Positions 6,175-54,045 of a stretch of 64,000 nucleotides of DNA are shown piece after piece. Every line of letters begins with the position of its first letter. Within the stretch, counting starts at the first letter, position 1. Below the pieces are notes generated by a model. It searched no databases, had not been told where the DNA came from, and saw nothing but the letters and a program-made list of their open reading frames with translations. The translations under genes and the position numbers were made by a program. The stretch is from Desulfosporosinus youngiae DSM 17734 (GTDB lineage Bacteria; Bacillota; Desulfitobacteriia; Desulfitobacteriales; Desulfitobacteriaceae). Location: positions 5,050,198 through 5,114,197 of the forward strand of contig NZ_CM001441.1 of NCBI RefSeq assembly GCF_000244895.1. The letters are read 5' to 3'.

Positions 6175-6200
6175 TGTTTCCTCCCATAAAGTGCGCGGAC

Positions 6201-9415: not shown

Positions 9416-9443
9416 GGTGAAACGTCTCCTCTCTTCGGTTTAC

Positions 9444-9454
9444 AGGTTGGACCA
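9444..9454. promoter_or_regulatory. Candidate FCD-regulator operator upstream of the LUD operon
   Basis: AGGTTGGACCA matches the FadR/FCD consensus TNGT-N3-ACNA with one mismatch. It lies 29 bp before the start of the fused LUD gene, where a repressor encoded by the same operon would be expected to bind. A short sequence like this can occur by chance. Confidence 0.35.
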
Positions 9455-9567
9455 TCAATCCGCAATTAATAACTGCCAATAGATAATCCCCACTCCTACT
9501 CTTGCAGAGAAAAGCGGGGGATTAATTGAATCTCTTCCATCAAGACTCTGCTATTCGATCTCAAGTA

Positions 9568-30601: not shown

Positions 30602-30670
30602 TGTCAAAACCTTCCCCTTTAACACTGACTTTAATTCCTATTTTAATTCTTACTTCAGCTCTAACTTTAA

Positions 30671-31537: not shown

Positions 31538-31580
31538 CTCTTTCCCTCCAATTCTAAAGTTAAGACAACCTGCTTAGCCA

Positions 31581-33720: not shown

Positions 33721-33721
33721 T

Positions 33722-35110: not shown

Positions 35111-35129
35111 ACTAATTTCTCCCTATAAG

Positions 35130-35627: not shown

Positions 35628-35647
35628 CTTCAAATATCCTTTAACCT

Positions 35648-36277: not shown

Positions 36278-36278
36278 A

Positions 36279-37763: not shown

Positions 37764-38778
37764 ACAATAGCCTATGACGCAAACCGCTGACTCTTGTCGT
37801 TAAGACAAGGAAAGGATACTTAATCAATGTCAGCATAATTTTGACGGTAATATATGGTTTACTGGGAAACACACTGCACATATATAAGAAGCTATCCCAC
37901 TTGTCTTTATTAGGCTTCAATATCGTCTTGCCCAGGGCAATCGTAGTATATAAAATCAGAAGCTTTGAGTAATTCAGCTTAACCCCCAGCACTTCTCCGG
38001 CAAAGTCCTGCATAGCAAGGCATTCATCGAAAACAAATCTATTGACATTGATTTTAGAGAGCTGTGCACTCCAACTATCACCGCCCGCATAGATACGCCT
38101 ATGATGACTCATGACTTCCTCGAAACAATGAGTATCCCCTCGTATAGAGATGAGCATTGCTTTCTTGACATCCCCCGTTGCTTTTAGCTTCCCATATTTA
38201 TCGACCACCTCAGGATTATTGAGCTCGATGGCTTCTCTCCTATGCAAAAGAGTAGCAGTTTGTCCGTATAATAATCTCTTTTTTTGATGAGTTTCCAGCG
38301 TGTAAACACCACTTTTTCTGTATCCATAAAAGTACCGGCTTGACAACATTTTTCCATTTTCATCAACTTCCCAGCATTCATGGGTGGTCGCAATATATTC
38401 AGGATGCTCTTCCAGAAAATCCACTTGCTTTTGTAATTTATACGGATCAGTCCAATAATCATCTCCTTCACAATAGGCTATATATTTACCCCTGGCTGCG
38501 GGGAGAATAAACTTATGGGTAATAGATACATGCTTAGAATATTGATTCTCCCTTTGGAGTATTGGTTTAATGATATTAGGGTACTTCTCAGCGTATTCCC
38601 TGATAATAGCGGCTGTATTGTCCGTTGAGGCATCATCATGCACAATGATTTCATAGGCAAAGGTTGTCTTTTGCATCAACATGGAATCAAGAGCTTGCCT
38701 TAAGTACTTTTCATGTTTATAGGTCAAGCAGCTGATACTAACAATAATTTCATTAGTATCTTGAATTTCATCACCCAT
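37750..38778 (-). CDS. Family 2 glycosyltransferase
   Basis: 342 residues. GT-A fold with VSISCLTYKHEKYLRQALDS at the start, the nucleotide-binding VHDDASTDNT and the metal-binding EGDDYW (about 103-108). The acceptor and donor sugars are not readable from sequence. It is the only clear glycosyltransferase in the operon besides the initiating PglC-like enzyme, suggesting either a short repeat unit or that other transferases lie elsewhere. Confidence 0.9.
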   Translation of the reverse strand: MGDEIQDTNEIIVSISCLTYKHEKYLRQALDSMLMQKTTFAYEIIVHDDASTDNTAAIIREYAEKYPNIIKPILQRENQYSKHVSITHKFILPAARGKYIAYCEGDDYWTDPYKLQKQVDFLEEHPEYIATTHECWEVDENGKMLSSRYFYGYRKSGVYTLETHQKKRLLYGQTATLLHRREAIELNNPEVVDKYGKLKATGDVKKAMLISIRGDTHCFEEVMSHHRRIYAGGDSWSAQLSKINVNRFVFDECLAMQDFAGEVLGVKLNYSKLLILYTTIALGKTILKPNKDKWDSFLYMCSVFPSKPYITVKIMLTLIKYPFLVLTTRVSGLRHRLLYGKA

Positions 38779-40063
38779 TAATCTGTTTCATCCTTTCCTT
38801 TTTGCTAATTTTTTGCTGTCTGTTCCAACTGTAGACCACCGCAATCCCAGCCCAAAACTCAGGCACATACCAATAGGAATCAGAGAGCAGCAGCTTTAAA
38901 GAGCAAGCCAAAAAGATTAAAAACAAATCCAGCCAATCATCGTCATGGCATTTTAGCAGTGTCCAGACACCATGGTATAACAGAAAGAAGATTAACAATC
39001 CCCCGCATAGGACACCAAAGGTTATCAAAATCTCCAGGAAAATATTATGGGGATACCCCCAAAAATAATAATTCCCGATTACATAACGATCCCCGTACAG
39101 CCCATAACCAAAAAAGCCCATGTTCTTGATCATCTCGATTGACATATCATAGATTGCTGCTCTGCCGTTATCATCACTTATGGAGCCAGATAACAGCATG
39201 TCTATACTTCTGGCTGATATACCTCGAGCTTGCAAGAAAAACACAAGAAACCCAGTTAAGTCTTCAAGTTTCAGATATATCAACAAAAAGACAGGTACAG
39301 TCAATCCCCAAATTACCTTAACCTTACTAGTTATAAAACCTTTTATCAGCATCACAGTAAAAAATACTATAATCCACAACAAAGGTGCTCGAGAACCAGC
39401 CACTAAAATCATAAATATACACATAATGCTAAGTGCCAAGTGTAAGGTTTTCTTATCTCTCATTGCATAATACAGAAATACCATTGAAGGTAACATCATG
39501 TCATAGCCAAAGCTCATACTATAGGGCAGTTCTTCATATCCATTTGCCGTCAATGTCAGCCAACTACCAACCTGCATTGCATTCGTAAATTTATAGAATC
39601 CATAAATCAGAAAAATGTAGGAGACAAATTTTAAATTTTTCAGTATTTGCTTCGGATCATTAATAATTCGCACCATAAAATAAGCATACAAAGCACGATC
39701 CGGTCTAAAGATGTAATCCCAGACACCATAAAGCGGATGTTTAAACCAAGTTTCATATTCGGGATGGACCATAATTGTAACTATAAATGCTAATAATACA
39801 GTCACCCAAAGAAGCAAGAAATCACGTGTACGTCTTCTTTCTCCGCTTACAAATGGCATCAACAGCAGAGGAAAGTAGATAATAATCGACGTCAAAATCC
39901 AGGCATAGTCCGCCAAGCCATAAAATCCGAAAAGCCGGGTCGTACAAAATGAAATCGTATCTGAGGCAAAAAACATCACAAAACACATATTAGCAAGGAT
40001 TTGTTTTGATATCGCAAATTTAACGGCAGTTACATTTTGCTTCGGCTCCAGCTGTAGTTCCAT
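38771..40063 (-). CDS. Wzy-like O-antigen/EPS polymerase
   Basis: About 430 residues from the ATG with GGAGGG five bases upstream. Some 10-11 membrane segments and a larger extracytoplasmic loop after residue 260 (between about 280 and 340) carrying charged residues, as in O-antigen ligase/polymerase proteins. It would join flipped repeat units into polymer outside the membrane, with chain length set by the Wzz protein at 53.2 kb. Sequence conservation in this family is poor, so topology and context carry the call. Confidence 0.8.
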   Translation of the reverse strand: MELQLEPKQNVTAVKFAISKQILANMCFVMFFASDTISFCTTRLFGFYGLADYAWILTSIIIYFPLLLMPFVSGERRRTRDFLLLWVTVLLAFIVTIMVHPEYETWFKHPLYGVWDYIFRPDRALYAYFMVRIINDPKQILKNLKFVSYIFLIYGFYKFTNAMQVGSWLTLTANGYEELPYSMSFGYDMMLPSMVFLYYAMRDKKTLHLALSIMCIFMILVAGSRAPLLWIIVFFTVMLIKGFITSKVKVIWGLTVPVFLLIYLKLEDLTGFLVFFLQARGISARSIDMLLSGSISDDNGRAAIYDMSIEMIKNMGFFGYGLYGDRYVIGNYYFWGYPHNIFLEILITFGVLCGGLLIFFLLYHGVWTLLKCHDDDWLDLFLIFLACSLKLLLSDSYWYVPEFWAGIAVVYSWNRQQKISKKERMKQING

Positions 40064-40105
40064 ACACACCCTCCGTTTTATCTAGCTCATCAAAACACCC
40101 CTGAT

Positions 40106-41524
40106 TCAAATCACCCGCAAGGTCCGCTTTCTAACTAATGCCTCATACTGAACCTTACCTGACTCATTGCGCGGTATACTCTCAACAATAAACACAGCAT
40201 AAGCAGACATAACTATCCCAGTTTTTTTACTAATAAACCGCTGTACTCCATCTTTGCAGCTATCCCCTGTGATATAAATATCCATTCGTTTATCTGTACC
40301 TGTACACACACAATCTATCTTGAACTCATCCTTTATTAACCTTTCACATCGATCGAGGCTGACGCGTAGTCCATAAAGCTTTAAAAACCTACTTTTTCTG
40401 CCGATGATATAATAGCATCCGTCACTATCTCGTTTAGCAATATCTCCCGTAAGATATTCTCCCTGCCATTCATCACCCAGCAGCAAATCATTACGACAAA
40501 AAGCATACCCCATAGTCACATTTGGCCCTCTATATCCCATCTCACCCTCAGCTTCCATTTGCTTTATTTCTTTACCGTTTTCATCCAGTAAAAACAATTC
40601 ACCCCCAGGTATCGCTCGACCTATACTTCCAATCTTGGCTTTAGCAAGCTCCGGAGGTAAAAACGCCAGCCGGGCTGATGTCTCGGTAGTGCCAAAGGTA
40701 GCGAAAAATCTCTTTCCGGTACGGCCGGCGTAGTCTGCAAGATCAGCAAACATGCCAGTAGTCAGCTTTCCTCCTCCTTCGGCAAGTGTGGTCAAATATG
40801 GCAAATCCATTCGGGTAAAACGAAGTTTAAATAAAACCTCATAACTGAAAGGAACTCCTGTGAAATTAGTGGCACGCTGATCCTTAATATTACGCCAGAA
40901 ATCAGGACTCATCAGATTATGCGCCGTAAGCAACACCGATGCTCCTGCGTACAGATGACTGTTAATCACATTAAGTCCCATGGTATATTGCATTGGCAAA
41001 TCGGCAATAGCACGATCGTCCTTTGTCCAGCCAAAAAAAGCGGCCACATTTTTGGCGTTTGCTTCAAGATTGATGTATTTATGACGCACCAATTTCGGGC
41101 TGCCTGTTGAGCCGGAGGTTGTGAGCAGCATCGCCAAGTCGTCATTGATCGGATAAAGTTCATGTTCCGTACGAACAAGGACAAATCCATACCCTTTATA
41201 TAATATGGGCAAGTTAAATTCGGATACCAGCCGCTCGGGCATCCACAGGTAAGCCGGGGTATATACCTCAATCAACCGGGCTAGCAACTTGCGGTCTATA
41301 GCAGCACCAATCAAAAGAGGAACAATCCGATTGGATAAACAGCCAATGTAGCCGGACAGGGCACCAATTGTATTCTCACACAGACAAAAAACCATAGACC
41401 GTCGTGGCATCATGGCTCCGAACACTTGGGCAAAATCACACAATCCGCCATAGCTTAATTCCAGGCCTGTATCATCAATGGCGGCAATGATTTCTCGGCT
41501 GTGCCTATCAATTCCTAAATGCAT
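40106..41524 (-). CDS. AMP-forming acyl ligase (acyl-CoA/ACP synthetase-like)
   Basis: 472 residues. Adenylation motifs A3 LTTSGSTGSPK, A5 FGTTET, A7 YLTGDI and the C-terminal catalytic lysine in ESGKVQYEAL are all present, so it should be active. It activates a carboxylic acid as acyl-AMP. With the SDR and ACP genes directly downstream-to-upstream beside it, loading onto that ACP is the likely step. It is slightly shorter than typical acyl-CoA ligases, as many stand-alone carrier-protein ligases are. Confidence 0.87.
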   Translation of the reverse strand: MHLGIDRHSREIIAAIDDTGLELSYGGLCDFAQVFGAMMPRRSMVFCLCENTIGALSGYIGCLSNRIVPLLIGAAIDRKLLARLIEVYTPAYLWMPERLVSEFNLPILYKGYGFVLVRTEHELYPINDDLAMLLTTSGSTGSPKLVRHKYINLEANAKNVAAFFGWTKDDRAIADLPMQYTMGLNVINSHLYAGASVLLTAHNLMSPDFWRNIKDQRATNFTGVPFSYEVLFKLRFTRMDLPYLTTLAEGGGKLTTGMFADLADYAGRTGKRFFATFGTTETSARLAFLPPELAKAKIGSIGRAIPGGELFLLDENGKEIKQMEAEGEMGYRGPNVTMGYAFCRNDLLLGDEWQGEYLTGDIAKRDSDGCYYIIGRKSRFLKLYGLRVSLDRCERLIKDEFKIDCVCTGTDKRMDIYITGDSCKDGVQRFISKKTGIVMSAYAVFIVESIPRNESGKVQYEALVRKRTLRVI

Positions 41525-41536
41525 ATAATATCCTCC

Positions 41537-42283
41537 TCACATTATCGTACAGCCATCGACCGCAAGAACTTGTCCCGAAACATACCCTGATAAATCCGAA
41601 GCAAAAAAAACGCAAGCCCGTGCTATATCTGAAGGTTCCGCAATGCGCCCTACACTAATGTTGGCGATCCTGCCTTTTAACTTCTCAATATCTGCGGCTT
41701 CCATCATCTCTGTTTTTGTGAGACCCGGAGCAATCGAATTAACCCTTATATTTTTCGAGGCAAGTTCTTTAGCGGCAGATTTTGTCAAGGCTATGACCGC
41801 ACCCTTTGTTGCCGAATATACAAGTTGCCCAGGGTTGCCTCTGATTCCGACCAGCGACGATATATTAATAATGCTGCCGCCACTATCTTGTCTTGACATC
41901 AGGCGACTTGCCATTTGCAGCATTTCAATGGTTCCAAAGACATTAATCGAAAACATTCTTTCCAGGTTTTCCCGGGATATCATACCAATAAGCTCGTTAT
42001 ATTCAACCCCTGCATTATTCACAAGGACATCAAGCTGTTGTCTTTCCTTTTTTAGGTGTGTTAAAGCATTCTTAACCCCTGCCGAATCCGTTATGTTAAA
42101 ATAAAGCGGCCTAATTTGATTGCGTAGTTTACTTTCAGTAAGCCAGGAATCTACAGAACCTTCTCTTGCGTCATTTGCATACACAAAAGCACCTTCAGCA
42201 GCAAAGCTTTCCACTATTGCACGACCGATGCCCCTTCCCGCACCGGTAACAATACATACTTTATCTCTTAATAAGCCTGTCAT
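41537..42283 (-). CDS. SDR-family 3-oxoacyl-ACP reductase-like enzyme (FabG-like)
   Basis: 248 residues. NAD(P)-binding TGAGRGIG, NNAG, catalytic Ser in NISSLVG and YSATK are intact. FabG-like proteins reduce 3-oxoacyl-ACP to 3-hydroxyacyl-ACP. It sits between the acyl ligase (13 bp away) and the ACP (10 bp away), which points to reduction of an ACP-bound acyl group rather than of a sugar, though a sugar ketoreductase role cannot be excluded. Confidence 0.87.
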   Translation of the reverse strand: MTGLLRDKVCIVTGAGRGIGRAIVESFAAEGAFVYANDAREGSVDSWLTESKLRNQIRPLYFNITDSAGVKNALTHLKKERQQLDVLVNNAGVEYNELIGMISRENLERMFSINVFGTIEMLQMASRLMSRQDSGGSIINISSLVGIRGNPGQLVYSATKGAVIALTKSAAKELASKNIRVNSIAPGLTKTEMMEAADIEKLKGRIANISVGRIAEPSDIARACVFFASDLSGYVSGQVLAVDGCTIM

Positions 42284-42292
42284 TCGAACCTC

Positions 42293-42541
42293 CTAAACAT
42301 CATTAAAAGAAACCTCATACTTTTCCAGTATCTTCATACCGTTCTCGTAGGAACCAAAAGAGAGTATATCTTCGGTTTCAAACATTACATCAAAGGTATC
42401 TTCAAGCTCTGTTATCAACGACAAGTGAAGAATCGAATCCCAATCCTCGACATTTTTAAAGGTAAAGTCTTTGTTTAACTGATTGTCATCTATATTAAAT
42501 AAGGTTGTAAAAACCTCATTGTATTTCTGCAGGTTACTCAT
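42293..42541 (-). CDS. Acyl carrier protein
   Basis: 82 residues from the second ATG, which has AAAGGAG nine bases upstream; the first ATG overlaps that site. Four-helix ACP pattern with the phosphopantetheine serine in DWDSILHLSLI. It is not the primary fatty-acid ACP, whose motif is usually DSLD, and it sits inside the glycan operon. The operon supplies its own phosphopantetheinyl transferase (35130) and ligase (40106). Confidence 0.88.
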   Translation of the reverse strand: MSNLQKYNEVFTTLFNIDDNQLNKDFTFKNVEDWDSILHLSLITELEDTFDVMFETEDILSFGSYENGMKILEKYEVSFNDV

Positions 42542-42573
42542 ATCTCTCATCTCCTTTATGCTTAATCATGTTT

Positions 42574-43203
42574 TTAACGTAGTCCTCTTGCCGGATTCCC
42601 AAAAACCTTCATATTGCTCTCTACATCATTAATCACAACACTACCCAGTCCCACATATACGTCATCCCCAATTCTTTTCTTCGGCACAATCGCTGCATGA
42701 CTACCTAGAAAAACTCTCTTGCCCAATCTGACGTCTCCATTAACCCCACAGTGCGAAGATATTGTCGTGTAATCGCCAACCCAAGCATCATGACCAATTT
42801 TCGAAGACAATAATGTGACAAAATCGCCCACATAGGCGTCGGGCCCTATCCCCGAATTGGGGTAGGCAACAAATCCAAGACCATAGGTTGCGCTTTCGGC
42901 AATTCTGGCGGTGGGATGAATAACTGAAGCAAATTCTGCACCACGATCCCTAAGCAGCTTCGTTACCTTTTCTTTAATTACCGGAGAAGCAATGCCCAAA
43001 GCAAAGCATTGATTTTTCTCAATCTTCCAGTCCGCTATTCTTCCGATTATTTTATAGCTGCATTTTTTATCAGCCAATTGATTTAAATTGTCATCAATAA
43101 AACCCAGCACGTTCCAGGTTGGATTATCTTCATTGATGTCCCTCACCCACTCCAGAACTTCGCGCCCGTGCCCTCCGGCACCAACAATAATTAGATCTTT
43201 CAC
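42574..43203 (-). CDS. PglD/NeuD-family sugar acyltransferase (copy 2)
   Basis: 209 residues. GAGGHGREVLEW nucleotide-like binding loop at the N-terminus, then hexapeptide repeats with the catalytic His in SSKIGHDAWVG and the ending FGNPARGLR. Closest by role to PglD, which N-acetylates UDP-4-amino-sugars to give UDP-di-N-acetylbacillosamine. Next to PglC-, PglE- and PglF-like genes, so the bacillosamine-type branch is the likely user. Co-directional with ACP, so ACP-linked acyl donors are also possible. Confidence 0.88.
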   Translation of the reverse strand: MKDLIIVGAGGHGREVLEWVRDINEDNPTWNVLGFIDDNLNQLADKKCSYKIIGRIADWKIEKNQCFALGIASPVIKEKVTKLLRDRGAEFASVIHPTARIAESATYGLGFVAYPNSGIGPDAYVGDFVTLLSSKIGHDAWVGDYTTISSHCGVNGDVRLGKRVFLGSHAAIVPKKRIGDDVYVGLGSVVINDVESNMKVFGNPARGLR

Positions 43204-43223
43204 AGCATAACCTCATTTATGGT

Positions 43224-43784
43224 TTAGTTTTTAGCATCGAACTTCTCCCACTCATGCACAGCCAATTCCGGTTTGATTCTTTTACCTTTTGGTTTTAAGT
43301 CTTCCGGATAGGTATTTAAGTCTGATAATCTTTTTTTCACGTAGTCGTCAAACGTCCCTATAACCCTGGCTGGGTTCCCCCCAACAACAGTATTTTCCGG
43401 GACATCTTTTGTGACAACACTCCCTGCCGCTACAATTGCATCGGGGCCAATCCGAATATTATATAAGATCGTTGAGTTGGCCCCTATAAAGACATTGTCC
43501 ATGATCTCAATACAGCCGATTTTTTCTGTAAACTTGTTATCAGGAAATGCTTTATTAAGCATATTGTGTGTTACATCATGGGTTAGAAACGTCACATTCG
43601 AGGCAACCATAATATTGTTATGGAAACGAATTAAGCGTGAATAGAGCGGAATTTTTCTGGATTGAATCATAACATTCTCACCGATAGCGTTATAGATTCC
43701 TTTCCTTCTTGCAAATTCCGCTCGTCGAAATCCGCTTCTGATAAATGCCATTCTCACCATAAGCCAATACCGCTTTATTTGCAT
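43224..43784 (-). CDS. Left-handed beta-helix acyltransferase (CatB/maltose-acetyltransferase type)
   Basis: 186 residues. Short hexapeptide-repeat protein with an N-terminal helix and the family pattern VFIGANSTILYNIRIGPDAIVAAGSVV, catalytic His region TFLTHDVTH, and NPARVIG. No Rossmann subdomain, unlike the PglD copies. It may O- or N-acylate a sugar of the repeat unit from CoA or from the operon ACP. It overlaps the initiating transferase gene by 10 bp. Confidence 0.85.
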   Translation of the reverse strand: MQIKRYWLMVRMAFIRSGFRRAEFARRKGIYNAIGENVMIQSRKIPLYSRLIRFHNNIMVASNVTFLTHDVTHNMLNKAFPDNKFTEKIGCIEIMDNVFIGANSTILYNIRIGPDAIVAAGSVVTKDVPENTVVGGNPARVIGTFDDYVKKRLSDLNTYPEDLKPKGKRIKPELAVHEWEKFDAKN

Positions 43785-44407
43785 GACATTGTCCTCTCAG
43801 CCGCACCAAACTCTTCCATCGTCTGATTCTTCGACTGATTAACCCCGCGCCTTAAAAACACAATCCCCAAAGTCTTAAAGAAAATCCTTAAATCCAGGCC
43901 AAAGGAAATATGATCTACATACCACACATCATATTTAAATCTTGTCTCCCAGCCTACCTGATTACGCCCATGGATCTGTGCCCATCCGGATATTCCCGGC
44001 GTCACATCATGCCGCCGCATTTGTTCAGGCGTATATCGCTCCAAATACTGAACCATCAAAGGACGGGGACCAATGAAACTCATCTCCCCTTTTAATATAT
44101 TAAAAAGCTGAGGCAACTCGTCGACACTAAGCTTTCGTATAATCCCACCGACACGAGTCATCCGTTCCATATCGGATAAGGAATGACCATCTTTCTCCCT
44201 CTCCAGGCGCATTGTACGAAACTTATAAATCGTAAATATTACTCCATCTTTACCTGGCCGCTCTTGTTTAAAGAGCACGGGCCCCCGGGACCCTAACTTG
44301 ATGGCAAGGGCTGCACAAAGCATAATCGGGGATACTGCAATCAACAAAATAATAGAAAATAATAAATCCATGACTCTCTTAACCTTAACGTAAGATAGCA
44401 TGATCAC
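43775..44407 (-). CDS. PglC/WcaJ-type undecaprenyl-phosphate sugar phosphotransferase
   Basis: 210 residues. Membrane re-entrant helix at about 10-33, KFRTMR, the catalytic Asp-Glu pair in LSVDELPQL and the GPRPL motif. Monotopic short form, as PglC. It starts the lipid-linked oligosaccharide by moving a phosphosugar from the UDP-sugar to undecaprenyl phosphate on the inner face. GTG is used because AGGAG sits six bases before it. Its sugar is probably made by the two upstream Pgl-like enzymes. Confidence 0.93.
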   Translation of the reverse strand: MIMLSYVKVKRVMDLLFSIILLIAVSPIMLCAALAIKLGSRGPVLFKQERPGKDGVIFTIYKFRTMRLEREKDGHSLSDMERMTRVGGIIRKLSVDELPQLFNILKGEMSFIGPRPLMVQYLERYTPEQMRRHDVTPGISGWAQIHGRNQVGWETRFKYDVWYVDHISFGLDLRIFFKTLGIVFLRRGVNQSKNQTMEEFGAAERTMSCK

Positions 44408-44421
44408 TCTACACTCCTAGT

Positions 44422-45567
44422 TCATATCGTCTCTTTCAGTCGTGCTCCGGAATCAGGCAGAGAGGCATACCGAATAGCTCTCCTAATCTCAGCCACGACG
44501 TTATCGATTTGCTCCTCGGTGAGATTATTAAAAAATGGAATAGCCAAAGTACCACTCGCGACATGTTCTGTCACCGGAAAATCCCCTTCCTTATACCCAA
44601 ATATCTCTCGATAGAAAGGCTGAAGGTGAATCGCAGTAAAGTATGGCCTGCATCCAACCCCCCGTTCTAAAAGTAGTTGCATAACAAGATTTCGATCGAT
44701 CCATGCTTCAAACCTTATTACAAAAACAAACCAACTCATTTTCGCTCTCTGGTCTATGGTCGGAAGAATAACTCCATCCACATCCTTAAGTTTTTGCATA
44801 TAGAAATCAGCAACTCGCTGGCGTTTAGCGAGGATCTCATCAATACGTTCCAATTGGGCAATACCAAGTGCGCAACTAATGTCACTCATCCGATAGTTGT
44901 AACCTAACCGAACATGATTGAGCCACTGAGTATCAATTCCACGTCCTTGATTCCGGAGGCTATAACATAACTTAGCAAGGTTTTCATTGTTCGTAACAAC
45001 AACCCCACCCTCACCCGTTGTCATTTGCTTATTCGGATAAAAGGCGAAAACCCCGGCATTAGACATCGCTCCGGCTTTCTTACCATTCCACTCTGCCCCA
45101 ATCGCCTCGCAAGAGTCTTCAATAATCGCTAAGCCATGCTTAAGAGCAATACGTCTGATGTCATTCATGTTGGCAGGCTGCCCGAAAACATGAACCGGTA
45201 AAATTGCTTTGGTTCTTTCGGTAATCTTCTCTTCAATTTGTGTTGTATCCAAGTTATAGGTCTTCTCATCAATATCCACAAACACAGGTTTGGCACGCTC
45301 AAATAACATACAGTTACTGGAGGAAATAAAACTAAAGGGCGTAGTAATTACTTCATCACCATCTTTTATTCCTAAAGCAGCGATAATCATATGCAAACCA
45401 CTGGTTCCACTATTACAGGCTATTGCAAACTGTGTTCCGGCGTAATCTGCCATTTTTTTCTCAAACTCATTCAATTTGGGCCCTAAGCTTAGGATATTGG
45501 AATCCAAGACCTCTAGTACGGCTTGTTTTTCTTTCTCTGTGATATCTGGCCTTGCTAACGGAATCAT
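44422..45567 (-). CDS. PglE-like UDP-4-keto-sugar aminotransferase
   Basis: 381 residues. DegT/DnrJ/EryC1 family with PLP lysine in FAFYPNKQMTTGEGG and the family markers ACNSGTSGLH and EDSCEAIGA. It should transaminate the 4-keto product of the PglF-like dehydratase, whose gene ends one base before this gene begins. The amino product is the substrate for the PglD-like acyltransferase. Paralogue of the aminotransferase at 31581. Confidence 0.9.
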   Translation of the reverse strand: MIPLARPDITEKEKQAVLEVLDSNILSLGPKLNEFEKKMADYAGTQFAIACNSGTSGLHMIIAALGIKDGDEVITTPFSFISSSNCMLFERAKPVFVDIDEKTYNLDTTQIEEKITERTKAILPVHVFGQPANMNDIRRIALKHGLAIIEDSCEAIGAEWNGKKAGAMSNAGVFAFYPNKQMTTGEGGVVVTNNENLAKLCYSLRNQGRGIDTQWLNHVRLGYNYRMSDISCALGIAQLERIDEILAKRQRVADFYMQKLKDVDGVILPTIDQRAKMSWFVFVIRFEAWIDRNLVMQLLLERGVGCRPYFTAIHLQPFYREIFGYKEGDFPVTEHVASGTLAIPFFNNLTEEQIDNVVAEIRRAIRYASLPDSGARLKETI

Positions 45568-47424
45568 CTATATAGCCCTCCTCATCTCTTTCTTCACCGA
45601 AAATTGTTTAAACCCCGGCACAACCCCACCCAACACAGTTACGATCTGTTCCCTCGTCAAGTAAGAACCTCGCTCCCTAATCATCTGCACCAAACTCTCA
45701 ATCCCTTCAGCATTTATTCCATTTGGCTTTGCCACAAAAATTCTCTGATGCTTCGTACTCGCAGTCCCCTCATCTGCTGTGAGCAACTCCTCATACAGTT
45801 TCTCCCCGGGACGTATGCCTGTATATTCAATCTTAATATCCACATCCACTTTAAGGCCTGAGAGCCGAATCAAATCCCCTGCCAAATCAACAATTTTGAC
45901 CGGTTTTCCCATATCCAGAATGAAAACCTCCCCACCTTGGGCCATGGCACCCGCTTGAATCACAAGTTGGGCCGCTTCCGGAATGGTCATAAAGTAACGT
46001 ACCATCTCAGGATGAGTCACTGTCACGGGACCACCCTTAGCAATCTGTTTCTTGAACGTCGGAATCACACTTCCCCGGCTCCCCAGGACATTGCCAAAGC
46101 GAACGGTGACGAACCGCGTCTGGGATTGTCGATCGAGATTTTGAATGATCATCTCAGCCACTCGTTTTGTGGCCCCCATAATACTCGTCGGATTTATAGC
46201 CTTATCTGTGGAAATAAGGACAAAGGTTTTTACTTGGGTAATATCCGAGATCTCTGCCACATTATAAGTTCCTAAGATATTGTTCTTCAAAGCTTCTTCA
46301 GGATTTCGCTCCATGAGTGGAACGTGCTTATGAGCAGCGGCATGAAAGACAACTCCCGGTTTGTACCTGCTAAAAACCAATTCCACTTTTTCCCGGTCTT
46401 TGACGTCCAGGATTTCTGCAATAACGTTAATCCCGGGACATTCTGTACGCAGTTCTTGCTCGATATCAAAAATACTGTTCTCACCACGTCCAACCAGGAT
46501 AAGTTTTTGCGGGTTAAATCTACATATTTGCCGACAGAGTTCCGAGCCGATTGACCCCCCAGCACCTGTAATTAAGACGGTTTCTCCCGCTAAGTAACCC
46601 GCTACCTCCTCAATATCGAGATCCACCTGATCCCTTCCCAGTAAATCTTCGATCTGTACTTCGCGGACGTTTAAGCTATCCACTTGTCCACTGAAATAGT
46701 TATAAATACCGGGAATAATCTTAATGACAAGCCCGCTTTTTTCGCAAATCTCAGTCATATCCCGAATCACATCCCCTGAGGCTGAAGGCATGGCAATAAT
46801 AACCTCTTCAACTTTGTGGGATCTGACAACTCGCGGGATATCCTTCCTGGTTCCTAAGACGGGAATTCCCATCAATTTAAGTTTTTGCTTTTGCGGAGCG
46901 TCATCGATGATCCCCACCGGGTAACCATCACGATAATTGGAATTTTTCAGTTCACGAACCGCTAAGGCCCCGGCATCTCCTGCCCCAATGATCAGGACTC
47001 GCTTCGGGATTCCGGAGAAATGCAGGTTGAAAACACTGTCTTGTAATATCCGTCCCAGGAAACGAGAGCCTCCGATCAAAAACGTGGTGGTCAGCCATAA
47101 TAACACGGCCACCGTGTTTGGATAGCGCATCGGGGCCAAAAAATAAATGACGAGTACTACACTACTCGTTCCAACCGTAACCGCATAAACAATCGAAAGA
47201 AGTTCACTGATACTGGCATACTGCCAAAGCCGGTTATATAGGCCAAATATTGAGAAGATGATTAAGTAAATCAGCGTTCCGGCCCAAGCTGTATGATAAT
47301 AAGTTAAGAAATATTCCTGAGGAATATTTCCTTCAAAACGGAGGTAAAAACTTCCGAAGGCAGCTAAATTGACTAGTACTACATCAATTAATATTAATGT
47401 TAAGGATTTTCGGTTAAATTTCAT
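45568..47424 (-). CDS. PglF/CapD-type UDP-N-acetylhexosamine 4,6-dehydratase
   Basis: 618 residues. About four N-terminal membrane helices (1-110) are followed by a Rossmann-like region with IIGAGDAGALAVREL, then the catalytic SDR domain with TGAGGSIGSEL, STDKAINPTS and MGATK. In this family the usual SDR tyrosine is Met, as here (MxxxK). It converts UDP-GlcNAc to the 4-keto-6-deoxy sugar at the membrane. It is the first gene of the 20-gene operon, about 130 nt downstream of promoter A. Confidence 0.92.
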   Translation of the reverse strand: MKFNRKSLTLILIDVVLVNLAAFGSFYLRFEGNIPQEYFLTYYHTAWAGTLIYLIIFSIFGLYNRLWQYASISELLSIVYAVTVGTSSVVLVIYFLAPMRYPNTVAVLLWLTTTFLIGGSRFLGRILQDSVFNLHFSGIPKRVLIIGAGDAGALAVRELKNSNYRDGYPVGIIDDAPQKQKLKLMGIPVLGTRKDIPRVVRSHKVEEVIIAMPSASGDVIRDMTEICEKSGLVIKIIPGIYNYFSGQVDSLNVREVQIEDLLGRDQVDLDIEEVAGYLAGETVLITGAGGSIGSELCRQICRFNPQKLILVGRGENSIFDIEQELRTECPGINVIAEILDVKDREKVELVFSRYKPGVVFHAAAHKHVPLMERNPEEALKNNILGTYNVAEISDITQVKTFVLISTDKAINPTSIMGATKRVAEMIIQNLDRQSQTRFVTVRFGNVLGSRGSVIPTFKKQIAKGGPVTVTHPEMVRYFMTIPEAAQLVIQAGAMAQGGEVFILDMGKPVKIVDLAGDLIRLSGLKVDVDIKIEYTGIRPGEKLYEELLTADEGTASTKHQRIFVAKPNGINAEGIESLVQMIRERGSYLTREQIVTVLGGVVPGFKQFSVKKEMRRAI

Positions 47425-47558
47425 GAATGGGCTCCTTTACAGTAGTACAAATACGGAATTATCGCCTCTTTACCCAAACCTTTCTGCTTCCTGCAACTTT
47501 GTATTGATATTATTGAGAAAGACGGCCAGATAATTCTTCAAACTTTATGTTTGAGTTC

Positions 47559-47635
47559 ATTATAAGTGGCTTCCAATATTTGTACATCCGTAGAAGCTAC
47601 GGGAAAAACAAATAAACTTTTCAGGTAGTTTCTAC
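47559..47635 (-). promoter_or_regulatory. Promoter A of the 20-gene glycan operon with two inverted-repeat sites
   Basis: On the minus strand TATAAT (47559-47564) has no good -35 hexamer (ATGTAC at 17 bp). Instead GTAGCTTCTAC lies at 47590-47600, with its outer edge 36 bp above TATAAT, and a second GTAGAAACTAC at 47625-47635. The same arrangement exists in promoter B at 53950. This geometry, with a site overlapping the -35 zone, is typical of activator-dependent promoters. The predicted start is about 128 nt before the PglF-like gene. Confidence 0.65.
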
Positions 47636-47644
47636 AGGTGCACT

Positions 47645-47983: not shown

Positions 47984-48037
47984 GTCAGGGTAGACCCCCA
48001 TGCCGCCGGCGCGGCACCATCTGATGATGAAAAATAC

Positions 48038-48087
48038 AAAAAAATACGCTTTGACCCGTCTTAAAAAGACGTTCAAGCGTATTTTTT
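48038..48087. terminator. Terminator downstream of comA
   Basis: AAAAAATACGCTT / AAGCGTATTTTTT stem with an inner GTCTT/AAGAC stem; A and T runs on either side make it active on both strands. It ends the comX-Q-P-A transcript about 45 bp after the comA stop. Confidence 0.88.
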
Positions 48088-48131
48088 CGCTGTTAGACTC
48101 TATAACTGCTTATAAAAGATTACCTCATTCT

Positions 48132-48818
48132 TTAACTAATCTTATCCCCTAGGCCATTATCCTTTGTATAAATCAATACAGCCTCTAAACGGGATTTTGC
48201 GCCTAACTTTGACAAGATATTGCCGACATGGAAATCCACAGTGCGGTTTTTAATCTCCAAGGCGGCAGCGATTTCTCTATTGCGCAAGCCTTGGGCGATT
48301 AATTCTATTATTTCTAGTTCCTTTGGAGTCAGTGAGAATCTTTTTGACTCACTGGTATTCGTTCCGGTCTCTTCGCCAACAATTACAGATCTAAGATACG
48401 GGGCCATGTTTTGGGAAAAATAGTACTGACCGCTACTACTTGAGACCTGCAATATTGCCGCTGTCATTTCACTTTTTGAACAATCTTTAAGAAGAAAACC
48501 ATTGGCACCTTTATTTAAGGAGGCATCAACATACCCCTCTGGGCTTTGTCCGGTCAGCATAATAATTTTAACATTTGAAGCCAGCACTTTTATTTTTTCT
48601 ATCAAATCAGTTCCGCTGAAATCAGGAAGATTAATATCGAGTAATACCACGTCCGGATGTTCCGTCTTCACTAGTTTTAAACAATCTCTTCCATTCTTAG
48701 CCGTTCCCACAACGGAGATATAGCTCTCAGAGGATAGCAATGATACCGTCCCTTCCGCAAAGAGTGTATGATCATCTACTACTACAACTCTTATGGTCTT
48801 CTCCAAACCAGGGACCAT
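48132..48818 (-). CDS. comA: ComA-like LuxR/NarL-family response regulator
   Basis: 228 residues. Receiver domain (about 8-125) with acidic VVDDH, phospho-acceptor Asp in VVLLDINLPDFSG and MLTG; C-terminal LuxR helix-turn-helix (FSLTPKELEIIELIAQGLRN). Start at ATG with GGAGGTGG upstream. It is the output partner of the ComP-like kinase 51 bp upstream. Its natural targets are probably the two glycan promoters with GTAG-N3-CTAC sites that flank the locus, though binding is inferred from position. Confidence 0.9.
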   Translation of the reverse strand: MVPGLEKTIRVVVVDDHTLFAEGTVSLLSSESYISVVGTAKNGRDCLKLVKTEHPDVVLLDINLPDFSGTDLIEKIKVLASNVKIIMLTGQSPEGYVDASLNKGANGFLLKDCSKSEMTAAILQVSSSSGQYYFSQNMAPYLRSVIVGEETGTNTSESKRFSLTPKELEIIELIAQGLRNREIAAALEIKNRTVDFHVGNILSKLGAKSRLEAVLIYTKDNGLGDKIS

Positions 48819-48869
48819 CACACTTCCACCTCCTTCAATAATCCTTAGTTATCTGGTAATTGGTAAGCT

Positions 48870-51200
48870 CTAAATCGGAATAGACGCCTTAAGGGTCGCA
48901 CCCTGACCAATCTTTGCAGTGATAGAAAACTCTCCACCCAAGCTTTCTATCCGTTCTTTCATGCCAATGATTCCGAAATGATTGCCCGTTAACGACCAAT
49001 CAGCTATCTCCCGGGGGTCAAACCCTTTACCGGAATCCTTCATGATCATTTCAATTTTCTTATTGACCAAGGTAATGGTGACATTTACTCCGGAGGAACC
49101 AGAATGCTTTATAACGTTATTAATGCCTTCCTGCAAAAATCGAAACGCTACCAGTTCAATATCCTCATTAAACCGAGCCTCTCTAGTCACTCCTCTTACT
49201 TCCAGCACTATAACCAAAAGCTCTTTTTGCATAATTTGCTGAAACATGACCTCGACAGCAGGAATAAGACCCAAATCCCTCAAAGAAGATGGGCGCAAAT
49301 TACTGCAAATTGAACGAAGTTCATAATTCAAATCCTCCATCATGTCCTGCATTTCCAAGATCGCTTGAATACAATTACTTTCAGTCGAAAAATTAGTAAT
49401 TAATTCTTTCATTCTCCGATTTAGATCTAAGCCTATCTGTAATACTCCGTCATGTATTTCCCGCGCCAGAACTTTCTTTTCTTCCTCTAGGTTACTAAAT
49501 AACAATCGATTGATTACTTCCAGCCCCTGGCTTCTTCGTTGTGTTTCCCAAGATTTTTTCTCTATAGCATTTATTTCCCTGGACAATTGCTTCATGTCAC
49601 GGATCAACTTGAGACGTTGACCTAATTGATCACACACTTTAGTGAGTATCAGTACTTCATTTGATTTAAATTTGATATAAGAACGGCGATGGCTCAGGAA
49701 AATTCCGCATGCAAACTCTTCGGAAACAACAGGTATGTACAATTCCGCAGGAAAATTGCCGGTAAAATATTGGATGGTATGCCTTGTATTTTTAGCTATT
49801 CGATAATAATCCTCCATAATTGCTTGCTCTTTTGCATTGCCAAGATATCGTCCTACTGCAGTTTTAGTGTACCGCTCTTCCTGACCGTCTACTATAACAA
49901 AGGCACCTTCCAACCCGAGTTGGTTTATTAACTCTTCAACAATCAAGACTTCATTCATTGAGGACGAATTCCTGTGTAATTCAACGATTTTAGTTCCAAT
50001 TCCACGATTTCTATGAGTAAAGATATACTTATCAGCGGCATAATGTACTAAAGCTTTAAAGAGGTTAAAGATGACAAGTGCCATAGCAGTTAAAGACAAC
50101 CATAGTAGATATGTCTCGAGCTTCAAATCATTAATCATTCCTATTAGAAATAAAAAATAAGCACAAGCCAGGCAAGTTAAAATGCCAGAAACCATAGATA
50201 TAATAAGGGACTCGAGAAACATACGGCCATTTGGCAAACTCTTATTTAGGACAACATAACTAAGGGTAAGCGGAACAATCACAATGAAAAGAGCACTAAC
50301 CTTCGGATTAGCGATAAGTTCAACATCCAGAAGGATAGGAACCGCTGTAAGTATTACAAAGGGCAGCAAGCCTATCGCCAGACTCCAAAGCACAATGGCT
50401 GCCTGGTTTTTCGCGGGCTGCTCAGCGGGCAATCTAATCAGCCAGACTAAATTCCATAAAACTGTAACAGTCCCGATCACCCCATTAATGAGGGGGAGTT
50501 TTCTAATTTCCACAACCTCGATTGCAGCCCCTAACCCGTTTAAAACAAAGATCATAACTAAAAGGGCTGAAATAATGCCTAAAATCCAAATGATGAGTTG
50601 ATTTAAACGATTAACCTTGTTATTAAAAACTGAAATAAAATTCACTAAGAGGACTGGTACGAGGGAGAAACCAATGGCCTCTATTTCTCTCGCCAAGATC
50701 AATCCACGACTGGAAACCGGGGCTAAGATTATGACCAATCCGACCAGCCAATTAAACCAGAACAGAGCATGAGCTTTGACAAGGAAGGGTCGCTTAAATA
50801 CTGTAACAAGACCAACTAACCAGAAGATAACTCCTAAAGCGGCCACCGGGAGTTCACTTAACAAAGTATAAGCAAAAGGCGGATTCTCAATTTGGACAAC
50901 TCTCAGCGGCGCTTCAGGACTCTTTACGGTAATCGTGGAGGCTCCTTCTGCCTCCCCCCACTTTTTAGTCGACGGATACGTCCCCGGGTCGCCGTTATTA
51001 ATTTTTATAACCATATCCCCTATGCGAATTCCCGATCGATAGCCCTCGCCATGAGGGTCACTAAACGTTACGTTCCAGTTTCCTTCAATATTTTTAAGGC
51101 TCAGCCCTACGTAGGGTTGATTGAACAGAATAGTAAAATATACAAGACAAACTAAAATAAAGACGGCATTAGCAGTTCGAAGTGCTAGCCGCCTAAACAT
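48870..51200 (-). CDS. comP: ComP-like sensor histidine kinase
   Basis: About 776 residues. N-terminal helix (about 10-30), an extracytoplasmic PDZ-like region (about 35-100, with GIRIGDMVIKINNG), some seven to eight further helices to about 385, a GAF-like cytoplasmic region, then the HisKA_3 dimerisation helix with the phospho-His in REIHDGVLQ and a HATPase_c domain (INNVIKHSGSSG, DSGKGFD). This multi-helix plus PDZ-like plan is that of ComP. It overlaps the comQ stop region and has a weak ribosome site, so it is coupled. It would sense the modified ComX-type peptide. Confidence 0.88.
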   Translation of the reverse strand: MFRRLALRTANAVFILVCLVYFTILFNQPYVGLSLKNIEGNWNVTFSDPHGEGYRSGIRIGDMVIKINNGDPGTYPSTKKWGEAEGASTITVKSPEAPLRVVQIENPPFAYTLLSELPVAALGVIFWLVGLVTVFKRPFLVKAHALFWFNWLVGLVIILAPVSSRGLILAREIEAIGFSLVPVLLVNFISVFNNKVNRLNQLIIWILGIISALLVMIFVLNGLGAAIEVVEIRKLPLINGVIGTVTVLWNLVWLIRLPAEQPAKNQAAIVLWSLAIGLLPFVILTAVPILLDVELIANPKVSALFIVIVPLTLSYVVLNKSLPNGRMFLESLIISMVSGILTCLACAYFLFLIGMINDLKLETYLLWLSLTAMALVIFNLFKALVHYAADKYIFTHRNRGIGTKIVELHRNSSSMNEVLIVEELINQLGLEGAFVIVDGQEERYTKTAVGRYLGNAKEQAIMEDYYRIAKNTRHTIQYFTGNFPAELYIPVVSEEFACGIFLSHRRSYIKFKSNEVLILTKVCDQLGQRLKLIRDMKQLSREINAIEKKSWETQRRSQGLEVINRLLFSNLEEEKKVLAREIHDGVLQIGLDLNRRMKELITNFSTESNCIQAILEMQDMMEDLNYELRSICSNLRPSSLRDLGLIPAVEVMFQQIMQKELLVIVLEVRGVTREARFNEDIELVAFRFLQEGINNVIKHSGSSGVNVTITLVNKKIEMIMKDSGKGFDPREIADWSLTGNHFGIIGMKERIESLGGEFSITAKIGQGATLKASIPI

Positions 51201-51201
51201 T

Positions 51202-52143
51202 TTATCCAACAAGCTGAATCAACTTCTCTTTACTTTTTTCCGAAATTAAAATACCGTTTAAAATCCCCAGCGCACATTGCTTATACATCTCGTGAATTAC
51301 TGAACAATAATGAATAGTGCCCTCGTTTACAACCAATTCTCTTAACTGTCCTTTTTCAGTTATCCCGAATTCAGCTAATCCTTGGCTAGCCAAAGTACTC
51401 AGGTACTTTAACTTTTCAGCTTCTATCTCATTAAGAACATTCAGAAGATAAACAAACGGTAGTGTTTTCCTTCCTTTAATCAAATCACTTTTCGTCTCCA
51501 AATTCAGGAAGTCATCGAGATCATTTTTGATTTGACTCATCATACCTAAGCACATTCCGAATTGTTCGAACCGGCCGGCAAGTGTTTGATCGGCACCTCC
51601 TAAGATCGCCCCAATTTTACAAGCGCCGGCGGTCAATCCACCGGATTTTTTCTTAATAATCTCAAAATATTCTTCAAGCGTAATTCTATCTTTACTGTCA
51701 TTCATAAGCTCCTGAAATTGTCCGTCACACGCTTGTAACCCCATCTGGTTAAGAATCTCACTTACTTTCTCGAAATGCCTGGAATTAGCTAACCTCGAAA
51801 GCGCTTTGTAGCTAAGAACCAGAATACAGGTAGCTAAATTAATCCCTTGGGCAGGAGGGACTTTACGCCAAGGGAGATCGTTGTTATCTTGGTCTTGAAT
51901 ATCGTCCAAAATATCAGCCGCCAGGGCATAGAGTTCCATAGCGATGGCTCCTTGAAGACCTTCATCTAAAACTCCCCCAGTGCTATCGCAAGTTATAAGG
52001 GTTAATTGGGCCCATCCATACCTTCCCTTGATTTCAAAGCTGGAATCGAGCCAACGATTAATGATGTTTACTACACCCTTGCTAAGCCCGGATTCAGTCA
52101 TAAGCAGCTCTATTTCATTGGCAATAATTCCGTCCATATTCAT
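51202..52143 (-). CDS. comQ: ComQ-like isoprenyl transferase (polyprenyl synthetase family)
   Basis: 313 residues. First aspartate-rich motif in AADILDDIQDQD and second as KNDLDDFLN, so both Mg-diphosphate sites are kept. Length and placement between a ComX-like peptide gene and a ComP-like kinase gene match ComQ, which prenylates a tryptophan of ComX and helps export. Housekeeping prenyl synthases are usually found with isoprenoid genes, none of which is near. ATG start with AAGGGG upstream, 16 bp after the comX stop. Confidence 0.88.
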   Translation of the reverse strand: MNMDGIIANEIELLMTESGLSKGVVNIINRWLDSSFEIKGRYGWAQLTLITCDSTGGVLDEGLQGAIAMELYALAADILDDIQDQDNNDLPWRKVPPAQGINLATCILVLSYKALSRLANSRHFEKVSEILNQMGLQACDGQFQELMNDSKDRITLEEYFEIIKKKSGGLTAGACKIGAILGGADQTLAGRFEQFGMCLGMMSQIKNDLDDFLNLETKSDLIKGRKTLPFVYLLNVLNEIEAEKLKYLSTLASQGLAEFGITEKGQLRELVVNEGTIHYCSVIHEMYKQCALGILNGILISEKSKEKLIQLVG

Positions 52144-52159
52144 GTATAACTTGGCCCCT

Positions 52160-52360
52160 TTATACCCAATAAAGAGTCGGTTTCATTACAGCCGCTAAAG
52201 AATTAGCCGATATTTTTTCTTGCGAGAACACCTTTGCTATGGCGTTCAATTCGCAGTTACTCATTTCGCGGTTAGATTTTAACAGCGGTATTTCTACAGA
52301 GCTGCGATTTGGGTTTTTAGCTAATTCGTGAACTAATTCAGCAATCTTGTCAAAGTTCAT
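52160..52360 (-). CDS. comX: ComX-like pheromone precursor
   Basis: 66 residues behind GGGAGG. A polar helical leader, a CELNAIAKVF segment like the conserved middle of ComX precursors, and a short C-terminus with tryptophan at position 65 (KPTLYWV), the residue that ComQ would prenylate. The Trp lies next to the last residue, close to the C-terminal placement in Bacillus ComX. The mature peptide is probably the last 6-10 residues. ComX sequences diverge fast, so the call rests on size, Trp and the comQ-P-A context. Confidence 0.78.
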   Translation of the reverse strand: MNFDKIAELVHELAKNPNRSSVEIPLLKSNREMSNCELNAIAKVFSQEKISANSLAAVMKPTLYWV

Positions 52361-52473: not shown

Positions 52474-53184
52474 CTACAGATAAGCCATCTTGCTTTGCTT
52501 CTTCTTCGTATCGTCTGCAGCGTTATAATAGTTATAACAATAATATCCTTTGGTATTCATGGCCACTTTATTGAGAACCGCGCCGAGGATCTTTATCCCC
52601 AACTTATCCAGCAGACCCTTGGCTTTTTGCGCATGCCCCTTGTCCACTTCCCCTGAGGCTAAGACTAAGATGACACCATCAACTTCCAGGGCAAGAATCG
52701 CGGCATCTGTAACTGCAATAACAGGAGGAGTATCCATGAGCACCATGTCAAATTCCCCACTGACTTCCTCGATCAAGCATTTCATCCGTTTGGACCCGAC
52801 GAGCTCTGCAGGATTTGGAGGAACGGGACCTGCCGGGAGAACCCGGACACCAGGCACAACTGTTTCCCAGATATACTTTCGATAGTCCTGATCCTCAACC
52901 AGGTAAACCGATAACCCTGCTCTATTATCTAACCCGAATAGTTTATGTTGAGTGGGATTACGTAAATCAGCGTCAATAATCAGCACAGATTTTCCGGATT
53001 GAGCTATACTAACCGCGAGATTAGCGACGGTATGAGATTTCCCCTCCCTAGGGCCTGAGCTTGTGACGACTATTTTCTGAGTGTCTGAATCCACACTCGT
53101 AAACTGAACATTTGTTCTAAGCGACCGATAGGCCTCTGAGATTGGAGATTTTGTTTGCTCAAAGGTGATTAACGAATAGACCAA
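52474..53184 (-). CDS. BY-kinase (CpsD/YwqD/EpsB-type tyrosine kinase)
   Basis: 236 residues. Walker A GPREGKS, A' motif LIIDADLRNP, Walker B VLMDTPP, and a C-terminal tyrosine cluster (GYYCYNYYN and a final tyrosine) for autophosphorylation. It pairs with the Wzz-like membrane activator encoded 21 bp upstream and controls polymer length and export. TTG start with GGGGGGA upstream. comX begins 113 bp further on, on the same strand. Confidence 0.93.
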   Translation of the reverse strand: MVYSLITFEQTKSPISEAYRSLRTNVQFTSVDSDTQKIVVTSSGPREGKSHTVANLAVSIAQSGKSVLIIDADLRNPTQHKLFGLDNRAGLSVYLVEDQDYRKYIWETVVPGVRVLPAGPVPPNPAELVGSKRMKCLIEEVSGEFDMVLMDTPPVIAVTDAAILALEVDGVILVLASGEVDKGHAQKAKGLLDKLGIKILGAVLNKVAMNTKGYYCYNYYNAADDTKKKQSKMAYL

Positions 53185-53205: not shown

Positions 53206-53898
53206 TTATTTTCCCATTTCATAGTCTGGAATGATTCCCAGTACTGGAATCCCTAAAAGCTTCTCAACATCACTCGAAGTCTTTACCGTGTTATCCATAT
53301 ATTCCAACAAGAAGACCAAGCCAAGGGAAACCATAAGGCCGGCAATAAAGGCAATCAATATGTTCAGCAATTTATTAGGCTTAATGGGCTTATCCGGAAT
53401 CACTGCAGTATCCACAATACTTACACTGTCAACTTTTTTAATTTCAATGACAGCCTTAGAAAACTCTTGCGCCATTGTGTTGGCTATCGAGGCTGCCAGC
53501 TCAGAGTTTGTATTGCTCACCTGGATTTCCAGGATTTCTGTCGTCTTCACCTGATTTATGGAGATCAGACGATCGAGTCCTTCAACCGTCAGCTCTAAAT
53601 CCAGTTCTTCGATCACTTTTTCTTCGACGGTACGACTTTGGGCGATCAGGGCATAGGTTTTGGCAAGTTGTTGGTTCGCTTGAAGTACATTATTATCGAG
53701 CATTTTGACTGCCTCTTGGCCGGACTCTGCAGCTTTCTTTCCCACAATCAAGGTGGTTGAAGCTTGGTAAACCGGTTTTATGACAAAAAAGCTAATCACT
53801 CCACTGGTGAGTGCCGCGATGAGTGGCAAAGCCACCACGATGATCCATCGTTTTCGCAGCACACCCCAATACTGCCTTAAATCTACTTTCTCTTCCAT
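53206..53898 (-). CDS. Wzz/CpsC-type chain-length determinant and kinase activator
   Basis: 230 residues. Membrane helices at about 17-38 and 177-198 flank an extracytoplasmic coiled-coil region with the proline-rich segment PDKPIKPNKLLNI before the second helix. The conserved YWGVLRKRWII start is typical. With the BY-kinase it forms the regulator of polysaccharide chain length. First gene after promoter B; GGAGG precedes the ATG. Confidence 0.92.
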   Translation of the reverse strand: MEEKVDLRQYWGVLRKRWIIVVALPLIAALTSGVISFFVIKPVYQASTTLIVGKKAAESGQEAVKMLDNNVLQANQQLAKTYALIAQSRTVEEKVIEELDLELTVEGLDRLISINQVKTTEILEIQVSNTNSELAASIANTMAQEFSKAVIEIKKVDSVSIVDTAVIPDKPIKPNKLLNILIAFIAGLMVSLGLVFLLEYMDNTVKTSSDVEKLLGIPVLGIIPDYEMGK

Positions 53899-53949
53899 GT
53901 CAACCTCCTAAATCAGTCCCGCAAAACCCCAAACATTGTTTCAAAATTC

Positions 53950-54024
53950 ATTATAGAATTGCTCCGGTCTTTTTACATCCGTATAAACTACAGGCAAATA
54001 AAAAAGGAACCCGGTGGTTCCTAC
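53950..54024 (-). promoter_or_regulatory. Promoter B of the wzz/kinase operon with two inverted-repeat sites
   Basis: TATAAT (53950-53955) with weak -35 (ATGTAA), a GTAGTTTATAC site at 53981-53991 whose outer edge is again exactly 36 bp above TATAAT, and a second GTAGGAACCAC at 54014-54024. Around the inner site the string ACGGATGTA is identical to promoter A. The upper site overlaps the terminator of the upstream gene, so part of its similarity could be accidental. Confidence 0.62.
54005..54022 (-). terminator. Terminator of the 54.0-54.5 kb gene
   Basis: AGGAACC / GGTTCCT stem with a 4-base loop, then TTTTTT on the minus strand, about 25 bp after the stop codon. Confidence 0.8.
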
Positions 54025-54045
54025 AGGTTCTGCGACAACCTCTGC

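Follow-up and report, generated by a model that had tools for sequence, protein, structure and literature searches.

A divergent ComX-type X-Q-P-A cassette and its predicted link to surface polysaccharide genes in Desulfosporosinus youngiae

Introduction

To our knowledge, work on pheromones carrying a prenylated tryptophan has been almost entirely confined to Bacillus. Four adjacent genes of Desulfosporosinus youngiae DSM 17734, a strict anaerobe from soil, raise the question whether they form a pheromone circuit of this type and, if so, which genes it controls. A first-pass annotation made from the sequence had read them as the Bacillus-type gene set with comX ahead of comQ, and had predicted a surface polymer rather than competence as the output. 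The window analyzed here is the whole stretch of 64,000 nucleotides around these genes (positions 5050198–5114197 of the 5.66-Mb single-contig genome).

The 2014 census of such systems (Dogsa et al., PMC4008528) records loci of the comQXPA type for Desulfosporosinus and Syntrophobotulus and describes the gene order as quite conserved, with comX between comQ and comP. A literature search, conducted mostly outside subscription journals, found no prior description of the order X-Q-P-A or of the CTGTAG promoter reported below.

Results

Organization of the locus

The genes, protein families, motifs, co-occurrences and promoter described here were read from the DNA. ORF calls placed four adjacent genes on the minus strand between positions 48132 and 52360 in the order X-Q-P-A (Table 1), as annotated before; the four protein types of the Bacillus-type set are represented, including a NarL-type regulator with Response_reg and GerE domains. 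The described setting, with Wzz and BY-kinase genes upstream and glycan genes downstream, was found as well, except that the glycan run comprises 19 and not 20 genes. Domains identified among the tested genes of this run were CapD-type, DegT, sugar transferase, Wzx, Wzy, glycosyltransferase, hexose dehydratase, and GMD. An ATG at 51200 is an alternative start codon of P. The BY-kinase gene and the start of X are separated by 113 bp; because this gap is conserved, a separate promoter of X is possible. A canonical comQXPA locus is also present in the genome (about 3512392–3513481; its ComX scores 99 bits against PF05952), which therefore carries two ComX-type systems.

The region 3' of A contains a strong terminator, a copy of a dispersed repeat and the promoter of the glycan operon, in this order. 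The repeat copy (47640–48025) represents an element of roughly 390 bp with 63 matches in the genome, of which the longer ones are about 75–96% identical and some are arranged in tandem or wrap around. An Rfam search over the locus, including this repeat, gave no match.

Table 1. Positions of the genes, motifs, and regulatory elements within the window
Feature	Position	Strand	Evidence or remark
Surface glycan run, 19 genes, first gene CapD-type epimerase; predicted target operon	27750..47424	-	
CTGTAG-type promoter of the glycan operon	47552..47643	-	Predicted operator sites 47624-47638 and 47584-47603; TATAAT -10 at 47559-47564
Intrinsic terminator 3' of A	48034..48092	-	Fold -26.5 kcal/mol, z -7.7, U-rich tail
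A, comA-like NarL-type response regulator, 229 aa	48132..48821	-	Response_reg and GerE
P, comP-like sensor histidine kinase, 780 aa from TTG	48870..51212	-	HATPase_c, HisKA_3, weak PDZ_6
Extracytoplasmic PDZ domain of P, TM1-TM2, residues 37-107	50892..51104	-	AlphaFold model and Foldseek
Q, comQ-like tryptophan prenyltransferase (predicted), 313 aa	51202..52143	-	PF00348 (E 9.6e-24), tree, model
Pseudo-SARM NDLDD of Q, ComQ-diagnostic	51511..51525	-	
FARM DDIQD of Q	51892..51906	-	
X, comX-like pheromone precursor, 66 aa	52160..52360	-	30-member alignment, hhalign, pairwise match
Trp65 codon of X, penultimate residue, predicted prenylation site	52166..52168	-	W at -2 in 29/30
BY-kinase-type ATPase (CpsD/Wzc-like), probably in one transcript with XQPA	52474..53184	-	Domain; same position in 8 loci
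Wzz chain-length determinant, probably in one transcript with XQPA	53206..53898	-	PF02706; same position in 8 loci
CTGTAG-type promoter before wzz-BYkinase-X-Q-P-A	53942..54030	-	Predicted operator sites 54013-54027 and 53975-53994; TATAAT -10

The peptide X

X carries the conserved leader IAxLVHxLxKNP and terminates in PTLYWV. Its description as a small Trp-ending peptide was accurate as to size, but the precursor ends in Trp-Val, with the tryptophan in a conserved penultimate position. In the alignment of 30 family members (66 columns), Met1, Ala7, and Trp65 are invariant, and the tryptophan is the second residue from the end in all peptides but one, in which it is the last. The values for X (66 aa, W at −2) lie within those of ComX precursors (52–73 aa, Trp near the C-terminus). 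In vitro, ComQ accepts a tryptophan at the second to fourth position from the precursor end (PMC5331326).

The Pfam ComX model (PF05952), which had been proposed as a check of the 66-residue peptide, gave no match over the cut-off for X and matched only two of the 30 relatives weakly (best E 0.034); searches of NCBIfam and PHROGs yielded nothing useful. Despite this, the assignment to ComX was sustained by two other comparisons. With hhalign, the 30-member family matched the profile of canonical Desulfosporosinus ComX peptides (probability 91, E 1.1e-6) over 52 columns with the tryptophan aligned. Furthermore, an X peptide of a distant member of the Bacillota (L135), which is 34% identical to X of the window (pairwise E 2e-8), scores 33.5 bits against PF05952, with a cut-off of 25. 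Because of the family profile match and this intermediate above the Pfam cut-off, X is, as judged by sequence, a divergent ComX.

The enzyme Q

Two aspartate motifs had been attributed to Q. The first is a FARM of the usual type, whereas the second is not DDxxD but a pseudo-SARM (Table 1). ComQ enzymes are distinguished by a pseudo-SARM NDxxx or GDxxx in place of DDxxD, which is needed for the prenylation of tryptophan (PMC5331326). ND was found in all 50 ComQ-like rows of the alignment (31 XQPA, 7 canonical, and 12 other) and DD in each of the seven rows of housekeeping synthases (DDxxD). In the phylogenetic tree, Q of the XQPA cassettes is placed beside canonical ComQ with all seven housekeeping paralogues outside, so that the prenyl synthase does not cluster with housekeeping enzymes; support for the XQPA grouping itself is weak (89/70), with L056 and L123 as long branches. 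The AlphaFold model of Q (pLDDT 89) matched polyprenyl synthases and the Trp prenyltransferase Ord1 in Foldseek. The prenylation of the tryptophan of X by Q is thus predicted.

The PF00348 domain and the glycan neighborhood would also suit a polyprenyl diphosphate synthase with a housekeeping or glycan-carrier function next to a chance ORF. This explanation is hardly credible: its enzyme part was rejected because of the ND pseudo-SARM and the tree position, and its peptide part is refuted by the conservation of X in 30 loci.

The kinase P and the regulator A

The AlphaFold model of residues 1–425 of P consists of one helix, a PDZ-like domain (residues 37–107, preceded by YVGL), and nine more helices, i.e., ten transmembrane helices in total, which bears out the earlier description of a multi-helix kinase with a PDZ-like region. 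Bacillus ComP combines a PDZ-like loop between TM1 and TM2, ten transmembrane helices, HisKA_3, and HATPase_c (PMC9620489), and P fits this layout in domains and model, with HisKA_3 slightly under the cut-off (21.5 bits, cut-off 24). Foldseek matched the PDZ domain of P to those of DegS, CtpA/B, and HtrA3 (E 0.02–0.2, probability mostly 1.0). The matches include HtrA PDZ structures with the phage-derived ligands FGRWV and WTMFWV; if X, which ends with TLYWV, is bound in a similar manner, its tryptophan would occupy position P−1 of the PDZ ligand. The regulator A has the receiver aspartate and lysine positions and joins the receiver to a LuxR/NarL helix-turn-helix, as is characteristic of ComA-type regulators; its recognition helix is KNRTVDFH.

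The related Trp prenyltransferase PalQ acts on a RiPP in a gene cluster with a histidine kinase, and Q might likewise produce a PalX-like prenylated RiPP with another role (e.g., antimicrobial) while P and A sense something else. This is quite improbable, since X is a member of the ComX family rather than of the NHLP leader type, no gene for export or immunity was noticed among the four, the PDZ and ten-helix layout of P is that of ComP, and in nearly all intact cassettes P is accompanied by A.

Conservation of the cassette

The order X-Q-P-A is kept in about 30 orthologous or paralogous cassettes of Desulfosporosinus, Desulfitobacterium-like, Dehalobacter-like, and other genomes, and because the whole cassette recurs in order in so many loci, the four ORFs are not a product of chance. 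The hits of a tblastn search with Q in 101 relatives were separated by E into three groups: a ComQ-like set (<1e-60), a weaker group (1e-22 to 1e-42) of mainly canonical Q-X-P-A loci, and housekeeping synthases (~1e-11). Nearly all loci of the ComQ-like set have P and A downstream of Q, and about 30 of them have a small ORF, encoding a peptide with a C-terminal Trp, about 10–60 bp upstream of Q. One locus (L050) contains Q without recognized X, P, or A, and another (L061) is degenerate. The closest named relatives of Q are found in Desulfosporosinus lacus, D. fructosivorans, and D. nitroreducens; a search of viral contigs with Q gave no relative.

Downstream of the cassette, CapD is present in seven of the eight close loci. 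In L034, an initiating sugar transferase takes its place downstream of A, and the CTGTAG promoter is found there, too. The cassettes of the other XQPA clade lie outside this glycan locus. A glycan linkage as a rule for all XQPA cassettes was rejected because the paralogous cassettes checked adjoin unrelated genes.

Several variants were recorded in addition. In L135 and L137 (about 6000–9850, cassette strand) of distant Bacillota, A precedes P (X-Q-A-P). In L138 (genome G047), a second X peptide (...PMESWM) is followed by kinase pieces, with no Q within the 12-kb stretch. Loci L109–L124 of Paenibacillus genomes have the order Q-X, and the two peptides tested exceed the Pfam ComX cut-off. Loci L040–L060, which belong to the other XQPA clade, have a conserved element of another kind upstream of X (about TTCGACAnnATnAGCTAAATTTC...GCAGGAAAAG), the start of which resembles a Spo0A box.

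A promoter shared by the cassette and the glycan operon

A block of ~90 bp, which was first aligned in the gap before the CapD-type gene of seven loci, contains tandem CTGTAG-N3-mYAC sites and TATAAT and recurs before wzz in the window. The tandem sites are about three helical turns apart, and the second is centered near −43. The 20-bp core has two exact matches in the window, compared to a mean of 0.6 in shuffled sequences even at three mismatches. At 0–1 mismatches, the whole 5.66-Mb genome contains only the two promoter copies before wzz-XQPA and the glycan operon, with profile E-values of 3.8e-22 and 7.7e-20. The profile comprises 97 positions and was built from 24 copies, mostly from cassette-bearing genomes. 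Three operator-pattern matches in coding sequence (L157, L165, and L168) were discarded as false positives, as the context of a promoter was missing. The shared promoter is a new result of this analysis. Its high specificity suggests that the system switches on the neighboring surface-sugar genes as well as its own genes, and the previously predicted surface-polymer output gains strong support from it.

With an E of 1e-7 or better as the threshold for presence, the promoter was detected in all nine Desulfosporosinus genomes that carry this cassette clade and in 3 of the 21 that lack it (30 genomes). These three are G021 and G028, with one copy apiece, and G029, with a partial copy at a contig end; none was found at this threshold in the other 18 genomes of the genus. 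The co-occurrence has a Fisher p of 1.5e-5, uncorrected for phylogeny, and local copies are inherited with the cassette. The XQPA-linked BY-kinase (82–85%) is restricted to genomes with the cassette, so that locus and promoter move as a unit. This, together with the copies in G021 and G028, would be expected if the promoter served another regulator or a sigma factor and XQPA were a co-inherited target rather than the controller. We consider this rather unlikely for several reasons. Outside the genus, copies in G041 precede X and follow A of a second, divergent cassette (L056), and in D. lacus a copy follows A of the second cassette (L039). Copies unlinked to a cassette occur almost only in cassette genomes, where they precede genes for CWB2 and BY-kinase, a Big-domain protein, a subtilase, WecB, and other surface genes. 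Activation of the ComA type would suit the tandem arrangement, in which the second site lies near −43. Moreover, the recognition helix of A tracks the promoter: regulators of promoter-bearing cassettes (window, L031–L039, and L056) share [NK]RTVD[FYC]H, those from promoter-bearing genomes share [NK]RTV[DE][FYC]H, and most other XQPA regulators differ. The helix rule is loose, as the regulator of L057 has the near match KRTVDLH without a promoter match. Control of the promoter by A itself is hence preferred.

The four protein types are those of comQXPA, which could point to a Bacillus-like control of genetic competence; this is very improbable, given that the genome has only two promoter copies, one in front of wzz-XQPA and one in front of the glycan operon, and that it carries a canonical comQXPA locus besides.

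Two further loci with ComA-like genes were noted. The Dehalobacter-like genome G049 (L258, about 1476–2184, and L217) encodes an orphan ComA-like regulator with the helix KRTVEYH and has a single CTGTAG promoter copy in front of a gene for a secreted protein, with no Q nearby. In L038, a second ComA-like gene (3776–4468), 61% identical to A of the window, is situated directly upstream of X and is preceded by a CTGTAG promoter.

Discussion

X-Q-P-A is likely to form a ComX-type quorum circuit that controls surface polysaccharide and itself, as a second, divergent system of the cell. In this circuit, Q would modify the penultimate tryptophan of the X precursor with a group of the geranyl or farnesyl type, and the precursor would be exported and trimmed to a short peptide ending with ...TLYWV. 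The peptide might bind P from outside, plausibly via the PDZ domain between TM1 and TM2, upon which P would phosphorylate A. Phosphorylated A is predicted to bind the tandem CTGTAG-N3-mYAC sites, and we infer activation rather than repression, both of the wzz-BYkinase-X-Q-P-A promoter (positive feedback) and of the glycan operon promoter. Because A would activate both promoters, the output would be a density-dependent surface polysaccharide and not competence; in some relatives, other surface or exoprotein genes may belong to it.

A broader reading can be put forward only tentatively. The strict anaerobes Desulfosporosinus, Desulfitobacterium, and Dehalobacter might possess a separate ComX-type X-Q-P-A branch, in which the invariant penultimate tryptophan is both the prenylation site and the P−1 residue of a C-terminal PDZ ligand. 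The clade of the window would be hard-wired by its dedicated tandem-site promoter to a regulon of surface glycans and surface proteins, beside a canonical comQXPA in the same cell.

Gene order, predicted operator, and peptide family set this divergent branch apart; it spans sulfate-reducing and dehalogenating anaerobes, which are relevant to bioremediation and corrosion. The shared promoter provides a concrete, testable regulon that ties surface polymer to the sensing of cell density, the presence of two pheromone systems in the same cell raises the question of cross-talk, and the sequences offer about 30 new prenyltransferase–peptide pairs.

Among known systems, PalX-PalQ-PalP of Paenibacillus alvei (PMC10853753) resembles the cassette in its trans-prenyl-synthase-like enzyme, a small peptide with a near-C-terminal tryptophan, and a histidine kinase. 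In contrast, PalX has an NHLP-type leader, for which X of the window gave no domain match, and its tryptophan is at the very C-terminus; the three-gene cluster as described is without a response regulator. The canonical comQXPA of Desulfosporosinus and Syntrophobotulus (PMC4008528) shares the host group and the protein types. Compared to the canonical Desulfosporosinus system, Q of the window falls into a separate clade (about 31% identical), and X differs from the canonical ComX, which ends with ...YW, matches Pfam, and is encoded in the order Q-X-P-A.

The comQXPA system of B. subtilis likewise consists of the four protein types: a ComX-family precursor with a C-terminal Trp, a prenyltransferase with FARM and pseudo-SARM, a kinase with PDZ domain and ten helices, and a NarL-type regulator. 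In both, each target promoter has two operator sites, although those of the cassette are predicted; B. subtilis ComA uses an inverted and a direct repeat of TTGCGG at each promoter, whereas the sites here are of the CTGTAG type. Further differences are the order X-Q-P-A instead of Q-X-P-A, the divergence of X beyond the reach of Pfam ComX, and the position of the tryptophan, which is penultimate in X and third to fourth from the end in B. subtilis ComX. The predicted output of the cassette of D. youngiae, a surface glycan, is different as well.
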